IMG/VR virus record: IMGVR_UViG_3300017917_000368
Span: 1 to 49,144 of that record
Length of the DNA: 49,144 bases
Direction: 5' to 3' (one strand)
DNA from: a virus
A program made the position numbers and the translations under genes. Position 1 is the first letter of the stretch. Every line of letters starts with the position of its first letter. The notes below the pieces were generated by a model. It searched no databases, had not been told where the DNA came from, and saw only the letters and a list, made by a program, of their open reading frames with translations. Shown in pieces: positions 15,616 to 49,144 of the stretch.

Positions 15616-16092
15616 TAATTCTTCCAAGGTCTTTAACTTTGACATTACCGTACTAAAACTAATAGTACGCCAAACTCCCGGATGAAGAGGTTTAGGGTGA
15701 TCTTCTAAACTTACCCAGCAAAAACCACGATGTTCATGATTTAACTCGGGAACGAATTCCTCGTCTAACGGAATTAAGAAAGTATGATAAGTGAAACGTT
15801 TATTGTCGCTGGTAAATTTTTCTATGGGAATAACTTTAGTTTCAGAAAAGTTATAACCTAATTCCTCTTCTAGTTCACGATGCAGGCTTGAAAGTAGTTG
15901 TTCACCAGCTTCAATACCACCACCTGCTAATCCCCATGTACCTGTATATTTTTTAGTGTTGCGTAGCAAGAATAGATAACGTTGTGTGGTAGTACAATAG
16001 ATAAAAGTACCAACACCTTCTACAATACCAGAGTCCACAGGCCTTCTTTGTATTCGCCTTCCCAGCTTTTCACCCATTGATTGTTGGTCCAT
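15610..16092 (-). CDS. Nudix hydrolase
   Basis: The complete Nudix box is present: GGIEAGEQLLSSLHRELEEE followed by LGY, fitting Gx5Ex7REUxEExGU with the metal-binding REx2EE glutamates. The family hydrolyses nucleoside diphosphates linked to another group (damaged dNTPs, NDP-sugars, dinucleotide polyphosphates, capped RNA); the substrate here is not clear. The flanking EGVGTFIY and TGTWGLAGGG strands also fit. The listed ATG at 16092 overlaps gp15 by 73 bases. A GTG at 16038, just after AGAAGG, would give a product starting VDSGIVEGVGTF and may be the true start. T4 also has a Nudix enzyme (NudE), but this is not clearly its orthologue. Last gene of the reverse operon 18877 to 15610. Confidence 0.85.
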   Translation of the reverse strand: MDQQSMGEKLGRRIQRRPVDSGIVEGVGTFIYCTTTQRYLFLLRNTKKYTGTWGLAGGGIEAGEQLLSSLHRELEEELGYNFSETKVIPIEKFTSDNKRFTYHTFLIPLDEEFVPELNHEHRGFCWVSLEDHPKPLHPGVWRTISFSTVMSKLKTLEELL

Positions 16093-17426
16093 TTATATTG
16101 AGTACCTGTGGTTAGATTACTTACATATTGTAACGTATTAGCCTGTTGACTGTCAAATACAACATCCCAATGGTTACCATTGTATTGAATAATATCATTT
16201 GCGTGGGCCACTATGTCAACCCCGTCGGTGCCTCTCCAGGCACTGGCTCCAGAACCCGGGGCGTTACCAAAACTGCCAATACTGTTTAATATTAGATAAC
16301 GGGTACCGGCTGCTGGTCTAGTAATAGCAGTATCTGTAACTTTAAGAGGGTCAATGATAGCAGTCACAGAAGACAGTGTATTAGTTGGATAAGTGTCAAT
16401 ATCAGCATTAAAAATTAAAACAGTGTCGTCGGTAGGGTGATGACTGACTGTACCAACTACTTCAGTCATCTCATCTTCTTGTAGTAAACGAATCTGTGTA
16501 ACACCGTTTGTTATTCCTGGTCCGTATAGATTAACCAAAGTTCTCCAGTTGTCCTTGGTTCCAACTTTTGTTGGAGTAAGTAATGTAGGCTCTCTAGGAA
16601 GTTCTAGCTCACTGACTTTTAATAAAGTAAGTTGATTGCCTACTAATAAAACACTATATCCTAAAGGAGTATAGTACGGTCTTGCTATAATTTTTGTATC
16701 ATCTAAGATATCTTCTGAGAGGTCACCGTCACTGTTGTGAATGTTAGCAATAATCTTTTGTATAACACCAAGACGTTTGACCTTGGCCGGAGCACTGATC
16801 CAAACAGGTAGCTTAAATGTTAAAGTGGCCACGTCAATTGGATTTTCTGTACCAATTGGTACACTTCGGCTGGACCATGTAGGTGATTCTAACTTGACCA
16901 CACTTAAACTAGTCCAATCAACATAATTGTCGGTTGATTGTATTTCCAATGAAGGATTAAATAGTACAACTAACTGCTCTAATAATTGTAATTTTTGTTT
17001 AGTGTTACTAGTCCATATATCCAGTTTTAGTTCTAAGGTATAAGGAACAGGCATAGGACGCTCAATGGTAAATGCATTACCCTGGCGGTTTTCAAATTCT
17101 TGTGTGTCTTCGTTATAGTATTTTTGACGTATATTCATCTTACCAATGAAGTTAGGTTCTTGCATTCGATCTCTATCGTAGGTAATATTGTTGATATACA
17201 CAGTCATTGCTGGCACAACAGGCATCACACTGCCGCCACTGTTGTTACTTATAATACTCTGAACTTGTCGACTGCTATCGCCCCAGTACACAGGCACACG
17301 CTGTAGAGTTCGCACACCATCTCGGTTCGCGCCAAACTCAACTTGAAACCCAGATACTATGCGAATGAATTGCGCAAGAAAGCGTTCAATTTGAGCATCG
17401 TAAAAAAATTGTTGATTAGCTACCAT
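16020..17426 (-). CDS. 15: Tail completion / sheath stabiliser protein, gp15-like
   Basis: The 468-residue product has the conserved gp15 core: FLAQFIRIVSGFQVEFG, VPVYWGDSSRQVQSIISNN, PAMTVYINNITYDRDRMQEP, FTIERPMPVPYTLELKLDIW and TSNTKQKLQLLEQ. T4 gp15 forms the hexameric ring that closes the top of the tail and binds sheath, tube and neck. This protein is longer than T4 gp15 (272). The extra C-terminal part (from about residue 250) is beta-rich and ends in two hairpins, NDIIQYNGNHWDVVF and GTQYKWTNNQWVKSW, of the same type found in the fibres and sheath here. Its ATG overlaps the gp14 stop by 1 base, so the two are co-translated. The identification is firm for residues 1-250. Confidence 0.9.
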   Translation of the reverse strand: MVANQQFFYDAQIERFLAQFIRIVSGFQVEFGANRDGVRTLQRVPVYWGDSSRQVQSIISNNSGGSVMPVVPAMTVYINNITYDRDRMQEPNFIGKMNIRQKYYNEDTQEFENRQGNAFTIERPMPVPYTLELKLDIWTSNTKQKLQLLEQLVVLFNPSLEIQSTDNYVDWTSLSVVKLESPTWSSRSVPIGTENPIDVATLTFKLPVWISAPAKVKRLGVIQKIIANIHNSDGDLSEDILDDTKIIARPYYTPLGYSVLLVGNQLTLLKVSELELPREPTLLTPTKVGTKDNWRTLVNLYGPGITNGVTQIRLLQEDEMTEVVGTVSHHPTDDTVLIFNADIDTYPTNTLSSVTAIIDPLKVTDTAITRPAAGTRYLILNSIGSFGNAPGSGASAWRGTDGVDIVAHANDIIQYNGNHWDVVFDSQQANTLQYVSNLTTGTQYKWTNNQWVKSWEGEYKEGLWTLVL

Positions 17427-22576: not shown

Positions 22577-25500
22577 ATGGCATTAATTTCCCCAGGAGTC
22601 CAAGTAACAGTATCCGATGAGAGTCAATATACGCCCACCGCGGCCGGCTCAATTGCATACGTTTTAGTTGCGACTGCACAAGATAAAAGAAACCCAACTG
22701 GTTCAGTAGCAACAGGTACTACCGTTGCTAACGCTGAGAGAATTATCACAGTAACGAGTCCTAGAGAACTTGTTAGCTTGTTTGGTACACCAACATTCAA
22801 AACAGACGCCGGCGGCAATCCTATCCACGCCAGTGAACAAAATGAATACGGACTACTTGCGGCTTATTCTGCTTTAAGTGTAAGCAATCAAATGTACATA
22901 CAACGTGCTAACGTTGACTTAGATCAACTAACAGGCACAAGTATTCGTCCAACTGGCGAGCCAACAGATGGTACATACTGGTTAGATTTAGAAAATACTA
23001 ACTGGGGTATTTTTGCCTGGGACGCAGAAGGTCCTGGATTCATAGCACAATCTCCTATTGTTATCACGGATGAAGACCAAATTTCAAACGGATTACCAAT
23101 CCAGTCAGTAGGTCAGATTGGTGACTACGCTATTGATGCAACTACAACCAATAACTTTGTTTACTACAAAGGTTTTAGAAACAGATGGAGTAGAGTAGGC
23201 ACTGATAACTGGAAAGCAAACGTTCCAGTAATTACATCAAGTATTGCAAATCCAGGTAACTTAACAATTTACGATAAGATACAACTTAACGGAGCTAATA
23301 TTACTACTAACTCTACTACAATCACTGGTGTGGCTACTGCAATTAATAATGCTGGCTTGCCAGGTCTAACAGCTCGCGCAAATTCAATCGGTGCGTTAGA
23401 AATTTTTGTTGATAGTACAGCAGCTAGTTCAGGAAATGCAGCGTTGCCAGATGGTAAGTTGCGTATTGTTAAAGGCACTGATCCAGCAGTGGGCGGTAAC
23501 GTGGACTTGAGTGCTAAACTTGGTCTGTTCACATCTTTTGACGGTACATCAAATACAAAAACATTACTTGGTCCAACTATAACATATAGTAGCTATACTA
23601 GTGTTCCAGCATGGAGAGAGTCAGATACAGGAACTACACGTCCATACGGTTCTGTGTGGTTTAAAACATCAGCTACAGGTAACGGTGCAAGCTTCTCAGT
23701 TAAAGAATATAGCAGCGCATTACAAGAATGGCAAGTTCTTTCAGCTCCTCTTTACGCTAGTGATACAGCCGCTATTCAAGCATTGGATTTAACAGGTGGC
23801 GGCGCAGGCTTAGAAGCAGGATCTGTATACATAAAATACGATGTAAGCGACAACGACACAGGTTCATTTAAACCATATATTAAAAATGTTGCTGGCTTAT
23901 TAAAAATTACAGGTAATGCAGCAGGTGGTTCAGCAACTTACAGTGTGAACGACAGCTTCACATTAGAAGTAAGCGTACCAGGCAATTTATCAACAGCAAC
24001 ATCAACAGTTACACTAACAGGAACCACAGCTCAAGATTTAGTTGGTGATATCTTAGCAGCAGGCTTACCAAACATTAGCGCAGCTATTGAGACCAGTGGT
24101 GCAATTAGTATTAGTCACCTAGCTGGCGGTACTATTAAAATTACCAAAGGCACCGGTAATCCACTAAGTATGGCTGGTTTGTTTGTTGACAGTAAGGTCC
24201 AAGTGCTATCAGCAAATACAGTGTGGTTAGCAAGTCCGTTCACACCATTAACATATTTTGCCAGCACTGATGCTCCGTATAGCAACCCAGCCAATGGTAC
24301 ACTATGGTATTACAACGAAGCATTTGAAGCCGATGTAATGATTAATGATGGTACAGGCTGGAAAGGCTATCAAAATGGTGGCACTGACGCACGTGGATAC
24401 ACATTAAACGCTACAGATGATGCTGGCGTAATTTTCAGTGCAAGCCGTCCAACTAAACAAAGTGATAATATTGGTCAGTTAGTTGCAGGTGACTTGTGGG
24501 TTGACACAGGTGATTTAGAAAATTATCCAGTATTATATCGTTACAATGGTGCAGATTGGGATCTTATTGATAAAACAGACCAGGTTACATCCGACGGTAT
24601 TGTTTTCGCTGATGCTCGCTGGTCAACTAACGGTAATGTAAATCCTATTACAGACAGCATTACACCAACAACTGACCTGTTAACCAGCAATTACCTAGAC
24701 ATTGATGCACCAAGTTATCAAGCGTATCCCCGAGGCACATTGTTATGGAACACACGTCGTAGTGGTTTCAACGTTAAACGATTTGACACTGAGGCTCTTG
24801 CCGCTGATACAACATCAACTATAAATGCAACCTGGATAACAGCCAGTGGAATAGATCCTACAACAGGTGTTCCATACTTTGGACACAAAGCACAAAGATC
24901 TGTTATTGTAAATGCAATGAAACAGGCTATTGCATCTAGTACAGCACTACGCGAAGAGCAAACACAGTTTAACTTGATCTGTGCACCAGGATACCCAGAG
25001 TTGATCCAAGACATGATCACATTAAACAATGACCGTAAACAAACAGCATTTATCATTGGTGACAGCCCATTAACTCTAAATTCAAGTAGTACAACAGTCG
25101 AAGCATGGGCTAAAAACTCAGGTCTAGTAGTAGACAACGGCGAAGACGGTTTAGTAAGCACAAGCGAATACTTAGCTGTTTACTACCCAAGCGGTTTTGC
25201 AACAAACCTAGATGGCAACAGTGTAGTTGTTCCACCAAGCCATATGATGTTACGTACATTTATCCGTAGCGATAATGTTAGCTACCCATGGTTCGCACCA
25301 GCTGGTGTACGTCGTGGTGTACTTGACAACGTAAGCTCTATTGGTTACGTAGATGTTAATGATGGTAACTTGTTTAAGAGCATTGGCGTAACAGTAGGTC
25401 TGCGTGACATTATGTACGCTAACAGACTAAACCCAATTACAAACCTACCAGGGGTTGGTTTAGTAGCATACGGTCAAAAAACACGTGCTGCAATGACATC

Positions 25501-25828
25501 AGCAATGGATCGTGTAAATGTAGCACGTTTAGTAGTTTACTTACGCACAGTGCTAGATCAAGTAGCTCGTCCGTTTGTATTTGAACCAAACGACACTATT
25601 ACACGTAACCAGGTTAAAGCAGGCTTTGAAGCAGTGTTAAACGATCTAGTTGCTAAACGTGGTTTATATGACTACCTAGTAGTTTGCGATACTTCAAACA
25701 ATACACCAGATCGTATTGATCGTAACGAGTTATATGTTGATATTGCAATCAAACCAGTTAAAGCAATTGAGTTTATCTACATTCCAGTTCGCTTAGTGGC
25801 TACTGGTGCACCGTTGGCTATAGTATAA
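22577..25828 (+). CDS. 18: Tail sheath protein, gp18-like, with a large insertion
   Basis: The contractile sheath subunit. The N-terminus MALISPGVQVTVSDESQYTP and the C-terminal block (AMDRVNVARLVVYLRTVLDQ, RPFVFEPNDTITRNQVKAGF, DIAIKPVKAIEFIYIPVRLV) are typical of gp18. At 1,083 residues it is far longer than T4 gp18 (659). The extra length lies between about residues 130 and 740 and includes five short hairpins of the form G-x-x-W: GTYWLDLENTNWGIFAWD (132), YGSVWFKTS (356), NGTLWYYNE (573), GDLWVDTGDLENYPVLYRYN-G (637) and RGTLLWNTRRSGFNVKRFD (718). These probably form surface domains on the sheath. It has its own late promoter and a terminator just after the stop. Confidence 0.93.
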   Translation: MALISPGVQVTVSDESQYTPTAAGSIAYVLVATAQDKRNPTGSVATGTTVANAERIITVTSPRELVSLFGTPTFKTDAGGNPIHASEQNEYGLLAAYSALSVSNQMYIQRANVDLDQLTGTSIRPTGEPTDGTYWLDLENTNWGIFAWDAEGPGFIAQSPIVITDEDQISNGLPIQSVGQIGDYAIDATTTNNFVYYKGFRNRWSRVGTDNWKANVPVITSSIANPGNLTIYDKIQLNGANITTNSTTITGVATAINNAGLPGLTARANSIGALEIFVDSTAASSGNAALPDGKLRIVKGTDPAVGGNVDLSAKLGLFTSFDGTSNTKTLLGPTITYSSYTSVPAWRESDTGTTRPYGSVWFKTSATGNGASFSVKEYSSALQEWQVLSAPLYASDTAAIQALDLTGGGAGLEAGSVYIKYDVSDNDTGSFKPYIKNVAGLLKITGNAAGGSATYSVNDSFTLEVSVPGNLSTATSTVTLTGTTAQDLVGDILAAGLPNISAAIETSGAISISHLAGGTIKITKGTGNPLSMAGLFVDSKVQVLSANTVWLASPFTPLTYFASTDAPYSNPANGTLWYYNEAFEADVMINDGTGWKGYQNGGTDARGYTLNATDDAGVIFSASRPTKQSDNIGQLVAGDLWVDTGDLENYPVLYRYNGADWDLIDKTDQVTSDGIVFADARWSTNGNVNPITDSITPTTDLLTSNYLDIDAPSYQAYPRGTLLWNTRRSGFNVKRFDTEALAADTTSTINATWITASGIDPTTGVPYFGHKAQRSVIVNAMKQAIASSTALREEQTQFNLICAPGYPELIQDMITLNNDRKQTAFIIGDSPLTLNSSSTTVEAWAKNSGLVVDNGEDGLVSTSEYLAVYYPSGFATNLDGNSVVVPPSHMMLRTFIRSDNVSYPWFAPAGVRRGVLDNVSSIGYVDVNDGNLFKSIGVTVGLRDIMYANRLNPITNLPGVGLVAYGQKTRAAMTSAMDRVNVARLVVYLRTVLDQVARPFVFEPNDTITRNQVKAGFEAVLNDLVAKRGLYDYLVVCDTSNNTPDRIDRNELYVDIAIKPVKAIEFIYIPVRLVATGAPLAIV

Positions 25829-42522: not shown

Positions 42523-43417
42523 ACACAGCGAGACTATACTGTCAGAAATTCGCAATTATGACGCATTTTTAGATAGTCTACGGAATATTGCTGACATGGG
42601 TTGTGGCACCGGCGAAGATATACATTGGTGGGCTACATTAGAGACTCGCGACGATCCGCCTAAGCCATATAACTTTAATTGCTTTGCCATTGACACAAAT
42701 GAATCAAAATTATCTCAGGTTCCTAACCTACCTAATATTCACAAATATAATAATAACTTTAGTGCCTATCCAATATTTCCTGTAACCATAGATCTAATGT
42801 GGGCTCATGACAGTTTGCAATACAGTCATAATCCACTAGAAACACTTAAAGCATGGAATAAATCAATGACGGTTAATGGTATGCTAGTAGTAAGTATACC
42901 TCAAACCAATGGAGTTGAATACAACAGGTATTACAGTAGAACGTATGAACACTGTTTTTATAATTATACTCCTACTAGTCTAATTTATATGCTAGCAGTC
43001 AACGGGTTTGACTGTAAAGATGCATATTTACTAAAACGGTTCCAAGACCCGTGGATACAAATGGCAGTGTATAAAAGTGGTATAGAGCCAATGGATCCAG
43101 CTACTACCACATGGGAAGATTTAATCGAAACAGATTTGTTACATCCTACTGTAGTTAATAGCATTCGTAAACATGGACACATTCGTCAAGAAGAAATTAT
43201 AATGCCATGGTTAGATCGGGAAAATTATTATATTGATTGGGTTCCTCAAGCGACAGTAATACCACCAGAAGCAGAAACCATAGTTACAGGTGTATTTAAT
43301 ACCACCGAGGAATCAGTAAAACAACAAGTTCGTCAGAGAAAAAAATCCACAGTAGAAACTACCTTACTGAAACCAGTGGGTATTATACGCCCACCAAAAG
43401 AACGTTATGTTAAATAA
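42506..43417 (+). CDS. SAM-dependent methyltransferase
   Basis: 303 residues. Class I methyltransferase motifs: IADMGCGTGEDIHWWA (motif I, about 27-42), NCFAIDTNESKL (motif II, about 58-69), IDLMWAHDSLQYSHNPLETL (about 93-112, motif IV region) and MTVNGMLVVSIPQTN (post-IV strand). Residues 150-303 include LIYMLAVNGFDCKDAYLLKR and a hydrophilic C-terminus. This arrangement is like small-molecule or sugar methyltransferases, such as those tailoring polysaccharides, rather than DNA methyltransferases (no DPPY-type motif seen). Overlaps both neighbours, so it belongs with the radical-SAM and nucleotidyltransferase genes. Confidence 0.82.
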   Translation: MHQLARHSETILSEIRNYDAFLDSLRNIADMGCGTGEDIHWWATLETRDDPPKPYNFNCFAIDTNESKLSQVPNLPNIHKYNNNFSAYPIFPVTIDLMWAHDSLQYSHNPLETLKAWNKSMTVNGMLVVSIPQTNGVEYNRYYSRTYEHCFYNYTPTSLIYMLAVNGFDCKDAYLLKRFQDPWIQMAVYKSGIEPMDPATTTWEDLIETDLLHPTVVNSIRKHGHIRQEEIIMPWLDRENYYIDWVPQATVIPPEAETIVTGVFNTTEESVKQQVRQRKKSTVETTLLKPVGIIRPPKERYVK

Positions 43418-44147
43418 AGTAGTGTTAGTTACAGGTGGTTTTGATCCTTTGCACTCGGGTCATATTCAATACTTTCAAGATGCTCGACGTTTAGGCGATA
43501 TGCTGGTAGTTGGAGTCAATAGCGATGCTTGGCTTGAACGTAAAAAGGGTCGTGCGTTTATGCCCAGCAATGAGCGCATTACTATCATACAAAATCTTAA
43601 AATGGTTGACCACTGTATATTGTTTAATGATGACGATGACAGTGCCCGCGAAGCTATTCGAAACGTTAAAAGCATGTATCCTAATAGCCAGATTATTTTT
43701 GCCAACGGCGGTGACCGCACGGCTAAAAATATACCTGAAATGACGGAACCAGACGTAGAGTTTGTGTTTGGTGTTGGTGGCGAAAATAAAATGAATAGTA
43801 GCAGTTGGATACTAGAAGAGTGGAAAGCACCTCGCACAGAACGTCCTTGGGGGTATTATCGTGTACTACATGAAGTACCGGGTACCAAAGTTAAAGAACT
43901 AACCATTAACCCTGGAAAGTCGCTTACCATGCAACAACACTATGAGCGTGCCGAACATTGGCACGTAGCATATGGCATGTGTCAGGTTGAATTAGATAAT
44001 CAGACATTTACCTTACAACATCACGATCACTATCATGTTGAACCCGAACAATGGCATAGACTACATAATCCTTTTACTGTTCCTTGCCGCATAGTTGAAA
44101 TACAGTACGGCGACTATTGTGGCGAAGATGATATTGAACGCAGATAA
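43407..44147 (+). CDS. Cytidylyltransferase-cupin fusion (sugar nucleotide enzyme)
   Basis: 246 residues in two domains. Residues 1-140 form a cytidylyltransferase-type domain: VVLVTGGFDPLHSGHIQYF with HxGH (residues 16-19), GDMLVVGVNSDAWLERKKGR and MPSNERITIIQNLKMVD (the ISTxER-like region). Residues about 142-246 form a cupin like the phosphomannose isomerase part of ManC: RTERPWGYYRVLHEVPGTKV-KEL, SLTMQQHYERAEHWHVAYG, FTLQHHDHYHVEPEQWHRLH and CRIVEIQYGDYCGEDDIER, with the metal-binding histidines. A fusion of these two activities suggests synthesis of an activated sugar or polyol phosphate. It overlaps the methyltransferase gene by 11 bases and ends the operon. Confidence 0.85.
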   Translation: MLNKVVLVTGGFDPLHSGHIQYFQDARRLGDMLVVGVNSDAWLERKKGRAFMPSNERITIIQNLKMVDHCILFNDDDDSAREAIRNVKSMYPNSQIIFANGGDRTAKNIPEMTEPDVEFVFGVGGENKMNSSSWILEEWKAPRTERPWGYYRVLHEVPGTKVKELTINPGKSLTMQQHYERAEHWHVAYGMCQVELDNQTFTLQHHDHYHVEPEQWHRLHNPFTVPCRIVEIQYGDYCGEDDIERR

Positions 44148-45592: not shown

Positions 45593-45835
45593 ATGAGAGC
45601 TACTAAACCCACTGTAGAACGCTATAACATTGATAATTGTATTAAGACATTTAATGATAATCAATTCTATCTAATCCTTGGTGCCGCAGCACGTGCAAGA
45701 GAAATCGCCAGTCAGCGCACATTTCAAGACCGTAACGGTATTAAAATGATCCATACAAATAAACCTGTAGTAGAGACACTGTGCGAAATTGACCAAGGTA
45801 AGATTGGTGCAGAATATTTAAATAAAATTCGATAA
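45593..45835 (+). CDS. RNA polymerase omega-like subunit
   Basis: 80 residues; bacterial omega has about 90. The alignment with RpoZ is clear: DNCIKTFNDNQFYLILGAAA with RAREIASQR corresponds to E. coli NRFDLVLVAARRARQM, and TNKPVVETLCEIDQGKIG corresponds to DKTTVIALREIEEGLI. Omega wraps the C-terminal tail of beta-prime and helps assembly and stability of RNA polymerase. A phage copy could replace host omega and bias the enzyme toward phage promoters; this is inference. It has an AAAGGA ribosome site and a sigma70 promoter, so it is likely made early. It is followed after 11 bases by a small basic gene. Confidence 0.82.
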   Translation: MRATKPTVERYNIDNCIKTFNDNQFYLILGAAARAREIASQRTFQDRNGIKMIHTNKPVVETLCEIDQGKIGAEYLNKIR

Positions 45836-46044: not shown

Positions 46045-47334
46045 ATGACAGACTATAAAGTAGCAGACATAGGTCTGGCAGAGTGGGGACGTAAAGAAGT
46101 AGCCATTGCAGAAACAGAAATGCCAGGGTTAATAGCTGTACGTGATGAATACAAAGATAAGCAACCACTGGCAGGTGCTCGTATTGCTGGTAGTCTACAC
46201 ATGACTATTCAAACAGCAGTATTAATAGATACACTAGTGGCTCTGGGCGCAGAAGTGCGTTGGTCAAGCTGTAATATTTTTAGTACGCAAGACCATGCGG
46301 CTGCATATTTGGCTGCCAAAGGTATTCCTGTGTTTGCATGGAAAGGCGAAACTGAAGAAGAATACTGGCAGTGTATTGAAGCAACACTCAGCGGTCCTGG
46401 TGACTGGCGTCCTAACATGATCTTAGATGACGGACACGACCTAACATGGTACGTACACAAACATCATCCAGGGCTATTAGATGGTATCTTGGGCGTCACA
46501 GAAGAAACTACCACAGGCATACACAAAATACGTGAAGCAATTGAAGCAGGTGAGTTCAAACTACGTGCTATCAATGTCAACGATAGTGTAACTAAAACTA
46601 AATTTGACAACCTATATGGTTGTCGTGAAAGCCTAGTTGATGGTATTAAACGTGCCACTGACAGTATGATTGCTGGTAAGATTGCTGTGGTAGCAGGCTA
46701 TGGTGATGTAGGCAAAGGTTCAGCCGCAAGTCTTAAAGCCTTAGGCGCACGTGTTTGGGTCACAGAGATTGATCCTATCTGCGCACTACAGGCTGCTATG
46801 GAAGGTTACTATGTAACTACCATGGACTTTGCCGCAGAACATGCTCATATATTTGTCACAGCCACAGGTAACATCAATGTTATTACACATGACCACATGC
46901 GTAAGATGAAGCATAATAGTATTGTGTGTAACATTGGTCACTTTGACAGCGAGATTGATGTAGCTAGTCTAGAGCAGTATGAGTGGGAAGAAATTAAACC
47001 ACAGGTTGATCACATTATATTCCCGGATGGCAAACGCATTATTTTATTGGCCAAAGGACGACTGGTAAACTTAGGCTGTGCCACAGGACATCCAAGTTAT
47101 GTAATGTCAAACAGTTTTACTAATCAAGTGTTAGCACAAATTGAAATGTACAATAACTGGAAGGCATATGACGTAGGGCAGTTGTATCTATTACCTAAAC
47201 ACTTAGATGAAAAAGTAGCTAAACTACATCTAGCACAAATTGGTGCACATTTAACCACGCTTACTCCAGAGCAAGCTGATTATATTGGCGTATCAGTTAA
47301 CGGCCCTTATAAAACAGATACATATCGATATTAA
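46045..47334 (+). CDS. ahcY: S-adenosylhomocysteine hydrolase
   Basis: 429 residues, the size of bacterial AhcY. It splits S-adenosylhomocysteine to adenosine and homocysteine with bound NAD+, removing a strong inhibitor of methyltransferases. The signature segments are intact: [73 protein letters not shown], the NAD loop [16 protein letters not shown] (about 215-230), [10 protein letters not shown] and C-terminal [10 protein letters not shown]. No disabling change is seen, so it should be active. The phage codes for at least one methyltransferase that makes SAH, plus radical-SAM enzymes that use the SAM pool. It ends an early-type operon with a terminator right after the stop. Confidence 0.96.
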
Positions 47335-47335
47335 G

Positions 47336-47367
47336 AAAAGTGTTGTATTTTTGCAACACTTTTTGAT
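47336..47367 (+). terminator. Intrinsic terminator after SAH hydrolase
   Basis: AAAAGTGTTG (47336-47345) pairs perfectly with CAACACTTTT (47354-47363) around an 8-base loop, running into T residues. It isolates the porin gene from the operon upstream. Confidence 0.88.
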
Positions 47368-47416
47368 TATTTTTACCAAAACGTGGCAGAAAAACTACAC
47401 TTTCTTGATCTATGTT

Positions 47417-47424
47417 TATAAATA
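47417..47424 (+). promoter_or_regulatory. Late promoter TATAAATA for the porin
   Basis: Exact T4 late octamer, 65 bases before the porin ATG. The leader (from about 47430) contains a perfect 7-bp hairpin, TAACACT / AGTGTTA (47441-47463), well before the AGGAGA ribosome site, which may stabilise the message. Confidence 0.82.
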
Positions 47425-47489
47425 ATTTACACTGTAAAGGTAACACTATTCTTTTCAGTGTTAATCCAATATTTAGGAGAACTAAAGTA

Positions 47490-48653
47490 ATGAAGAAAAC
47501 ATTATTAGCAACTTTGATGGCAGGCCTGTTTGCGTCCTCAGCAAACGCTGGTATCGTTATCCCAGCAGGTGAGTGGACGCTAGACATTAACGGTAACGTT
47601 AACGCCTATGCTTCGATTACTAATGCGAAAGATAACAACAATATCGTTGGCGGTATTGCTACTAAACAAGATGCGCAGGGCAACAGCCATGCACGTAGCA
47701 TCAACACTGGTTTGTTACCAGCATGGATTGGCTTTACTGGTAAATCACGTCAGAACGATTTAGACGTGGAATTTACAATCAGTTTCCAACCTAACGTAAG
47801 TGACAATTCAAGAGCAGGTGATGAACTAACTCCACTTAATCGTCAAGCATACGTAAGCTTTGGTGATAAGTCATGGGGCTCAGTGAAACTAGGTAAAGAC
47901 CTAGGTGTATTTGGTAGCGACGCTATCCTTAACGATATGACATTATTAGGCGTTGGCGCAGGTGCTGGTATCAGCGGTGCTACAACAACATTAGGTGGTA
48001 TCGGTAGTGGTTACATCTATCCAGCATGGAAAGGTCAAGTAGCATATACAACACCTAACTGGAATGGTTTGAGTGCAACCGTAGCTATTACCAACCCTAA
48101 CCAAACAAGTAACAATGATTTATATCAAGACAACTTTGGTTACGAAGGTAAAGTTAACTATGACTACAATCTAGCAGGTGTTACAGGTAAACTATGGACC
48201 AGCGCAGCTAACTACAAAGTTAACTCAGCAACAGCAGGTACATACACAGCCTACGCTTGGGACATCGGTGGTACAACTAACGTTGGCCCATTAGGTGTAA
48301 CAGCATACTACTACAACGGTAAAGGTGCTGGTACAACCTTATTTGGTGCTAACGGTGTAGATGCTAACGGTAGTCGTCGTGCAAGCGATGGTTTCTACTT
48401 ACAAAGCACATACGCATTGCCAACAAAAACCAAAGTTGGTGTAGCATATGGTCGTAGTAACCTTGAACGTGCTAACGGCGGTGATGTCTCTAACCTAGTT
48501 GACTTCAATGAACGTTACACAGTTGGTGCATACCATCCATTGACTAAGAACTTAAACTTAGTTGCTGAATACAATCGTATCAAGTCTGAAGCACATTCAG
48601 GTGTTAAGAACGAAAGCGACACATACTCAGCAGGTGCTATCTTATTCTTCTAA
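47490..48653 (+). CDS. Outer-membrane porin
   Basis: From ATG 47490 (AGGAGA upstream) the product has 387 residues. It begins with a Sec signal peptide, MKKTLLATLMAGLFASSANA, cleaved before GIV. The mature part is a Gram-negative porin: alternating amphipathic strands (VAYTTPNWNGLSATVAITNP, VNYDYNLAGVTGKLWTSAAN, TYALPTKTKVGVAYGRSNLE, NLNLVAEYNRIKSEAHSG), the segment FGDKSWGSVKLGKDLGVFGS before the presumed constriction loop, and a final aromatic residue (AGAILFF), the signal for BAM-mediated insertion. Porins form trimeric channels in the outer membrane. Codon and base composition match the phage genes around it. It has an exact phage late promoter and its own terminators on both sides. A longer frame from 47412 overlaps the promoter and is rejected. 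Confidence 0.93.
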   Translation: MKKTLLATLMAGLFASSANAGIVIPAGEWTLDINGNVNAYASITNAKDNNNIVGGIATKQDAQGNSHARSINTGLLPAWIGFTGKSRQNDLDVEFTISFQPNVSDNSRAGDELTPLNRQAYVSFGDKSWGSVKLGKDLGVFGSDAILNDMTLLGVGAGAGISGATTTLGGIGSGYIYPAWKGQVAYTTPNWNGLSATVAITNPNQTSNNDLYQDNFGYEGKVNYDYNLAGVTGKLWTSAANYKVNSATAGTYTAYAWDIGGTTNVGPLGVTAYYYNGKGAGTTLFGANGVDANGSRRASDGFYLQSTYALPTKTKVGVAYGRSNLERANGGDVSNLVDFNERYTVGAYHPLTKNLNLVAEYNRIKSEAHSGVKNESDTYSAGAILFF

Positions 48654-48679
48654 GAATAACTTTAGTTAACCAAAACTAC

Positions 48680-48708
48680 AAAAAAGCCTGCTTTTAGCGG
48701 GCTTTTTT
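48680..48708 (+). terminator. Intrinsic terminator after the porin
   Basis: AAAAAAGCCTGC pairs with GCGGGCTTTTTT (one G-U pair) around TTTTA, ending in a T run. Confidence 0.93.
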
Positions 48709-48780: not shown

Positions 48781-48936
48781 ATGTTTGATTCAATTGAAAT
48801 TCGTAAAGTAGCCAATGGTTTTATTGTTATCTTAAACACAGAAGATGACGCACAGGAATATGTATTTGACACTAGCCGTAAAGCCATTCGTTTTATCAAA
48901 GAATACGTAGAAGCTAAAGTAGCAGTAACCGCATAA
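48781..48936 (+). CDS. 51-residue hypothetical protein
   Basis: A short gene, MFDSIEIRKVANGFIVILNT then EDDAQEYVFDTSRKAIRFIK, ending AKVAVTA. AAGGA sits 7 bases before the ATG, and a terminator and probable promoter precede it. The pattern of a beta strand pair (GFIVILNTEDDAQEYVF) followed by a helix is that of a small alpha/beta protein; I recall close versions in T4-like environmental phages, function unknown. Likely early. Confidence 0.75.
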   Translation: MFDSIEIRKVANGFIVILNTEDDAQEYVFDTSRKAIRFIKEYVEAKVAVTA

Positions 48937-49004: not shown

Positions 49005-49144
49005 ATGTCAAAAACCGTTCTAGTAACTGGCGGTGCGGGCTTTGTTGCACACCACGTTATTCATCATTTATTAAAAAACACAGACTGGAATATTGTCAGT
49101 CTTGATCGCTTAGACTTTAGTGGCAATTTAAATCGTTTGTCTGA
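49005..49144 (+). CDS. NAD-dependent sugar epimerase/dehydratase (3' end outside window)
   Basis: Only the first 46 residues are present. MSKTVLVTGGAGFVAHHVIH is the Rossmann NAD(P)-binding start of extended short-chain dehydrogenases (TGGAGFxxxH), followed by a strand ending in SLDRLDFSGN, where the Asp binds the adenosine ribose. dTDP-glucose 4,6-dehydratase and UDP-sugar epimerases start like this. The usual GxxGxxG third Gly is Ala-His here (GFVAHH), a form I have seen in some family members. It may act with the cytidylyltransferase-cupin in sugar nucleotide synthesis. Start chosen by the GGAG site 7 bases upstream. Confidence 0.85.
   Translation, partial: MSKTVLVTGGAGFVAHHVIHHLLKNTDWNIVSLDRLDFSGNLNRLS

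Follow-up and report, generated by a model that had tools for sequence, protein, structure and literature searches.

The window, that is, the whole stretch of DNA analyzed here, is a 49,144-base virus record containing genes for the major head protein, tail sheath, tail tube, terminase, UvsX and a single-strand binding protein. The gene for the late sigma factor gp55 was found on one 177-kb relative (phrog_234, E=2.3e-23) and not on the window or on seven shorter records, all of which are fragments. The head, sheath, terminase and UvsX genes, together with gp55 in the relative, agree with the T4-like setting proposed in the initial annotation. The tail sheath protein is unusually long (1083 aa, positions 22577–25828; phrog_10581, 5.7e-209), and the other strand encodes a further sheath-type protein, of 468 aa (16020–17426). 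Further observations in the window include a freshwater-2 RNA (RF02980; 1601–1668), which scores 50.2 bits, barely above the gathering score, and lies directly before a gene at 1666; a cytidylyltransferase-like domain fused to a mannose-6-phosphate isomerase-type cupin (43407–44147), kept in seven contigs; and a small RNA polymerase omega/Rpb6-like protein (45593–45835; PF01192, 7.5e-7), whose family occurs in 14 of the 23 porin contigs described below and which might have a role in transcription control.

Close to the end of the window, the S-adenosylhomocysteine hydrolase gene ahcY (46045–47334, plus strand; TIGR00936, E=3.8e-182) is closed by an intrinsic terminator (47335–47364, plus strand; 13-bp stem, -14.7 kcal/mol, z -5.6) and followed by a porin gene of the Porin_4 family (47490–48653, plus strand), itself closed by a second intrinsic terminator (48680–48708, plus strand; -16.5 kcal/mol, z -4.8). 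The z values of both hairpins confirm that the porin lies between two strong terminators, as originally described. Further downstream on the plus strand there are a 51-aa ORF with no assigned function (48781–48936, from the ORF list) and, recognized by inspection, a nucleotide-sugar dehydratase/epimerase-like gene of which the contig end leaves only the first part (49005–49144). A similar-looking gene heads a run of sugar and glycosyltransferase genes in related contigs, and its counterpart in contig L005 matches GDP_Man_Dehyd (PF16363, 1.3e-44).

The porin gene extends from an ATG at 47490 to a stop codon at 48651–48653 and encodes 387 aa. The ORF list opens this frame at an ATG at 47412 (413 aa); we set the start at 47490 because homologs, ribosome-binding site and signal peptide all agree on it. 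The ribosome-binding site, AGGAG (47475–47479, plus strand), is invariant in 12 contigs. By inspection, the N-terminus (MKKTLLATLMAGLFASSANA followed by G; 47490–47549, plus strand) resembles a signal peptide, including an AxA site, and the protein ends in ILFF, with a terminal Phe. The Pfam match to Porin_4 (PF13609, E=1e-25) covers residues 7–367, the whole barrel, and the earlier description of a complete porin with signal peptide and terminal Phe was correct. Its composition (GC 0.43 for the porin and 0.40 for the window), compared within the window alone, cannot by itself separate phage from host DNA. An AlphaFold2 model from 22 sequences, of moderate confidence (pLDDT 74.8, pTM 0.76) and low confidence in the loop regions, is a barrel of 17 strand segments that also has a short helix (143–149). 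The best PDB matches of this model are PorB, BpsOmp38, DcaP and the anion-selective Omp32 (E down to 1.6e-16), with OprP also among them; by sequence, no relatives of the porin were found in the PDB or in PHROGs. Both the sequence and the predicted 16-stranded barrel with a constriction loop identify the product as a member of the Porin_4 family.

The region between the ahcY terminator and the porin contains a -35-like hexamer, TTGATC (47405–47410, plus strand), and, 17 nt after it, a -10-like hexamer, TACACT (47428–47433, plus strand), each of them imperfect (4/6). The T4-type late-promoter octamer TATAAATA (47417–47424, plus strand) lies inside their spacer, 73 nt before the ATG. Upstream of the -35 there is an A-tract element, ACCAAAACGTGGCAGAAAAACTACACTTTC (47375–47404, plus strand), possibly a regulator site, an assignment of low confidence; similar boxes are equidistant in other type-1 contigs (defined below), and TGTAACAAAAATGTCACA-like boxes occupy the corresponding place in hosts. 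The host version, a direct repeat TGTAACAAAAATGTCACA with 7-4-7 spacing immediately before the -35 of host porins (e.g., L016, L018, L025–L029), looks like an OmpR/PhoB-family site.

The initial annotation took the exact octamer as evidence of a late promoter. The octamer is indeed present, but the bare word occurs at chance level in the window (4 found against 5.45 expected), so we rejected it as evidence and used class and conservation tests instead. For the NATAAATA class, 11 of the 18 sites in the window are upstream of genes and on the sense strand, in a stretch where 0.36 would be expected (p = 6.5e-15); the commonest form, GATAAATA, is mostly 27–40 nt before structural genes. Because these sites precede genes, mainly structural ones, and a relative encodes gp55, NATAAATA is, as far as sequence can tell, the late-type motif of this phage lineage. 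Published late promoters include NATAAATA in S-PM2 (PMC2984593) and CTAAATA in Aeh1 (PMC1524935).

Conservation around the octamer follows a pattern. Twelve of the 16 distinct phage porin copies share a common cassette, here called type 1, with the TAAATA core in the spacer in all 12, and with a leader end of the form ATCCA...AGGAGAA.TA..GTAATG. The sigma-70-type arrangement TTGAY-N17-TACACT, or close variants, is found in 12 contigs: TTGAC or TTGAT is at fixed spacing (with TTTAC and TTAAC once each) and ACACT is invariant. The remaining four copies (type 2; L005, L006, L007, and L036) have a different leader and also an [AC]TAAATA core upstream. The proposed late promoter is supported in part: its core is conserved in place in relatives but embedded in a conserved sigma-70-like promoter. 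We read the whole as a putative interlocked early/late promoter, which more probably drives expression from the early stage of infection onward into the late stage than in the late stage alone. A candidate hairpin in the 5′ leader (AACACT..AGTGTT) was discarded, as its z score in the window is -0.5 and compensatory changes are absent from the 12 sequences compared, and inheritance of the promoter from a host porin is unsupported, the upstream sequences of host loci being different.

The composite pattern TTGAY-N9-TAAATA-N3-TACACT was not found in 187 Methylophilaceae genomes, although chance alone would yield few matches, if any, in that amount of DNA. IMG/VR contains at least 119 matches, most of them directly before genes of other contigs, among them families starting MATSTKK, MHSFDTN, and MQDLARI; of 69 sites, 46 were in the sense orientation and 20 lay on the other side. 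The pattern is thus specific for the porin within porin contigs, a specificity that does not hold across IMG/VR, and the interlocked sigma-70/late promoter seems to be a widespread design, wider than porins.

Whether other phages carry this porin, a question raised from the start, can be answered: relatives occur on 22 further IMG/VR contigs, seven of these at 71–95% identity and the others near 50%; with that of the window, there are 16 distinct copies. A tblastn search against 50,697 annotated phage records retrieved no relative. In 20 of the 23 contigs ahcY is within the same stretch as the porin, commonly directly upstream. Contigs with a close ahcY (at least 79% identity) nearly all carry the porin where the sequence extends far enough, whereas those with a distant ahcY (78% or less) lack it; porin carriage therefore marks a sub-lineage. 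Pairwise dN/dS for the porin is 0.06–0.20 at dS 0.25–0.73, and 0.07–0.15 against the nearest relatives, showing that the gene is under strong purifying selection. An assembly chimera, or the passive presence of a recently captured host gene, could be imagined, as the porins are host-type proteins and that of the window is close to the contig end. We consider this very improbable: an assembly join at 47335–47490, which would have undone the initial annotation, is contradicted by the same ahcY-porin junction in independent contigs from other metagenomes, the promoter and signal peptide types are absent from the hosts examined, and purifying selection acts across dS ~0.5.

The closest bacterial relatives, which the initial annotation had left to be found, are porins of Methylophilaceae, with 54–66% identity (61–66% for the best), and a Porin_4 relative is present in 136 of 187 genomes of this family. 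Judging from porin similarity alone, the phage lineage probably infects Methylophilaceae. A tree built on the mature parts places phage group A (the window and L002–L007) beside pelagic/OM43-type porins and group B (L035–L045 and L047) next to those of the Methylotenera type; L046 may form a third group, a placement that is uncertain. A test that omitted long rows rejected a single phage porin clade (AU p 5.6e-61), and the phage porins have more than one origin, with at least two groups. The gene is host-derived, under purifying selection and present in several phage genomes, as is characteristic of an auxiliary metabolic gene. The constriction-loop region and the periplasmic turns are kept with respect to the hosts, mostly at 75–90% identity, as expected if channel function is retained. 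Conversely, the surface-loop residues 47–52, 207–216, 326–335, and 369–372 show 15–27% identity to host porins, although the loops of host porins also differ among themselves.

All phage copies carry a signal peptide of the type MKKxLLATLLAGLFATSANAG, which none of the examined host copies has; its residues 3–11 show 70% identity within phage group A and 11% to hosts. The upstream DNA of the window or L046 is 69–78% identical to that of L039, L043, and L047, whereas the mature genes are only ~38–65% identical. The opposite is seen between L036 and L043, with porin genes 83–90% identical and unrelated upstream DNA (41%, and 16% further up). Additionally, in L192 (1249–1437 and 874–1161, minus strand) the porin cassette, with box, composite promoter and leader, precedes a different small outer-membrane barrel-like gene with one in-frame stop. 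These mismatches between upstream and gene identity, together with L192, indicate that promoter and barrel are exchanged separately. The phages may keep a fixed outer-membrane slot, formed by the early/late promoter, leader and signal peptide, and repeatedly swap its barrel for porins of the Methylophilaceae they infect, tracking the host outer membrane; we regard this model as evenly balanced between right and wrong. A slot with exchangeable barrels makes it testable whether changes in the host porin are followed for feeding or for receptor control.

Among the 13 distinct contigs whose flanks are informative, nine have phosphate-type genes near the porin (L002, L004, L035, L036, L042, L043, L045, L046, and L047); the window, which stops 491 nt past the porin, L003 and L006 end too soon for this count. 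The count includes phosphoesterases, which are the sole phosphate-type gene in L002, L042, and L046; these LpxH-like enzymes may have a role in lipid A instead of phosphate uptake, making the count of nine generous. The neighbors in relatives comprise PstS (TIGR02136, 8.9e-97), a phosphate-selective Porin_O_P (1.2e-40), a Porin_5 (3.3e-31), the LpxH-like phosphoesterases and, in one contig, a PQQ methanol/ethanol dehydrogenase (L035, 11453–13318; TIGR03075, 3e-184). In L004 and L008, which have the porin type of the window, PstS is directly downstream, followed in L008 by a second porin (Porin_5). By inspection, PHO-box-like repeats (TTGTAACATTACTGTAAT) belong to the PstS and phosphate-porin genes themselves. 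In the other four of the 13 contigs (L005, L007, L039, and L040) no phosphate gene accompanies the porin, which in L005, L007, and L039 precedes envelope-sugar genes. Other host-type genes in porin-bearing contigs encode an Hsp70 (L045, 951–2927), a CHASE2-adenylate cyclase (L045, 16279–18291), and a fatty-acid desaturase (L006, 5363–6199).

Taken with the conserved constriction and the diverged loops, these neighbors favor nutrient entry as the role of the porin, with a change of receptor as the main rival. The best explanation, which we hold with slightly better than even confidence, is that of an auxiliary nutrient-acquisition porin of T4-like phages infecting Methylophilaceae. During infection, the phage would equip the outer membrane with a 16-stranded pore of host type, probably transcribed early from the sigma-70-type promoter and then late from the overlapping NATAAATA promoter. 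After shut-off of host porin synthesis this pore could admit phosphate, methanol, other C1 substrates and ions to the periplasm, where it would supply the PstS and PQQ dehydrogenase encoded beside the porin in sister phages, to the presumed benefit of the phage. Nutrient flow during infection had been one of the functions suggested initially; it is favored because related phages place PstS, a phosphate-selective porin, phosphoesterases and a PQQ dehydrogenase beside the porin, and the four contigs without a phosphate gene count against it.

The phage porin might instead, as the initial annotation also proposed, displace or dilute a host receptor porin, so that other phages are barred from adsorbing or the progeny is spared from sticking to debris. 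The contrast between loops and constriction region would fit this superinfection exclusion, as would the nucleotide-sugar dehydratases, C-methyltransferase, glycosyltransferase, acyltransferase and desaturase flanking the porin in relatives. There is also a precedent in the porins Lc, from phage PA-2, and NmpC, outer-membrane porins encoded by lambdoid prophages with a reported effect on phage receptors, although their carriers are temperate phages of Enterobacteriaceae. Nevertheless, porin loops usually diverge, host copies included, and it is hard to see what PstS, the phosphate porin and the PQQ dehydrogenase would contribute to exclusion; we consider exclusion unlikely as the main role, and nutrient entry and receptor change can be compatible simultaneously. 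General envelope upkeep, in which the porin would make up for lost host porin and keep the outer membrane in balance over a long infection, serving no solute in particular and playing no part in adsorption, agrees with the frequency of the family in Methylophilaceae genomes and with the envelope-sugar genes, rather than nutrient genes, downstream in L005, L007, and L039. It leaves the repeated PstS and phosphate-porin partners unexplained, however, and appears improbable to us.

Phage porins as such are already on record, as the viral ompL discussed below and as porins annotated in uncultured Caudovirales in structure libraries (BFVD). Full-text literature searches found no description of a porin in a T4-like phage, in agreement, as is the empty tblastn search, with the initial remark that no well-described case is known. 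As far as these searches reach, what is new is a porin maintained in a lineage of T4-like Methylophilaceae phages, its phosphate/C1 setting and the shared slot with exchangeable barrels. The methylotrophs that these phages probably infect are abundant in fresh and coastal waters. The porin often accompanies a phosphate-binding protein and another porin of phosphate type, and in one case a methanol-oxidizing enzyme, such that one infection could rebuild a whole uptake path.

The Porin_4 porins of Methylophilaceae (OM43 isolates KB13, HTCC2181, LSUCC0717, and relatives) belong to the same family, with 54–66% identity, the constriction region and the C-terminal Phe, whereas the phage copies have another signal peptide, another promoter and diverged surface loops. 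Overlapping early and late promoters were described for RB49 and S-PM2 (PMC2984593), where a gene is likewise served by early elements of sigma-70 type and by late ones; here, both elements are interlocked in a single 29-nt unit before outer-membrane proteins. The T4-like viruses VP_139 and VP_266 from Lake Baikal, of the same host family, carry methanol dehydrogenase and SAM-cycle genes (PMC7678222), and the word porin is absent from the main text of that report. The viral ompL found beside glnK-amtB in contigs from oxygen-minimum zones (PMC8115048) likewise pairs a viral porin with a gene for nutrient transport, but apparently comes from Flavobacteriales and accompanies ammonium genes rather than phosphate/C1 genes. 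Cyanophage phosphate genes, such as pstS, with PhoB-controlled promoters, are another example of host uptake genes in lytic T4-like phages, and cyanophage PstS is thought to sustain phosphate uptake while host expression shuts down (PMC10976474). The product of cyanophage pstS is a periplasmic binding protein, and known phage nutrient genes act mostly in the cytoplasm or periplasm, whereas here a lytic T4-like lineage would supply the outer-membrane channel itself, the gate to the cell.
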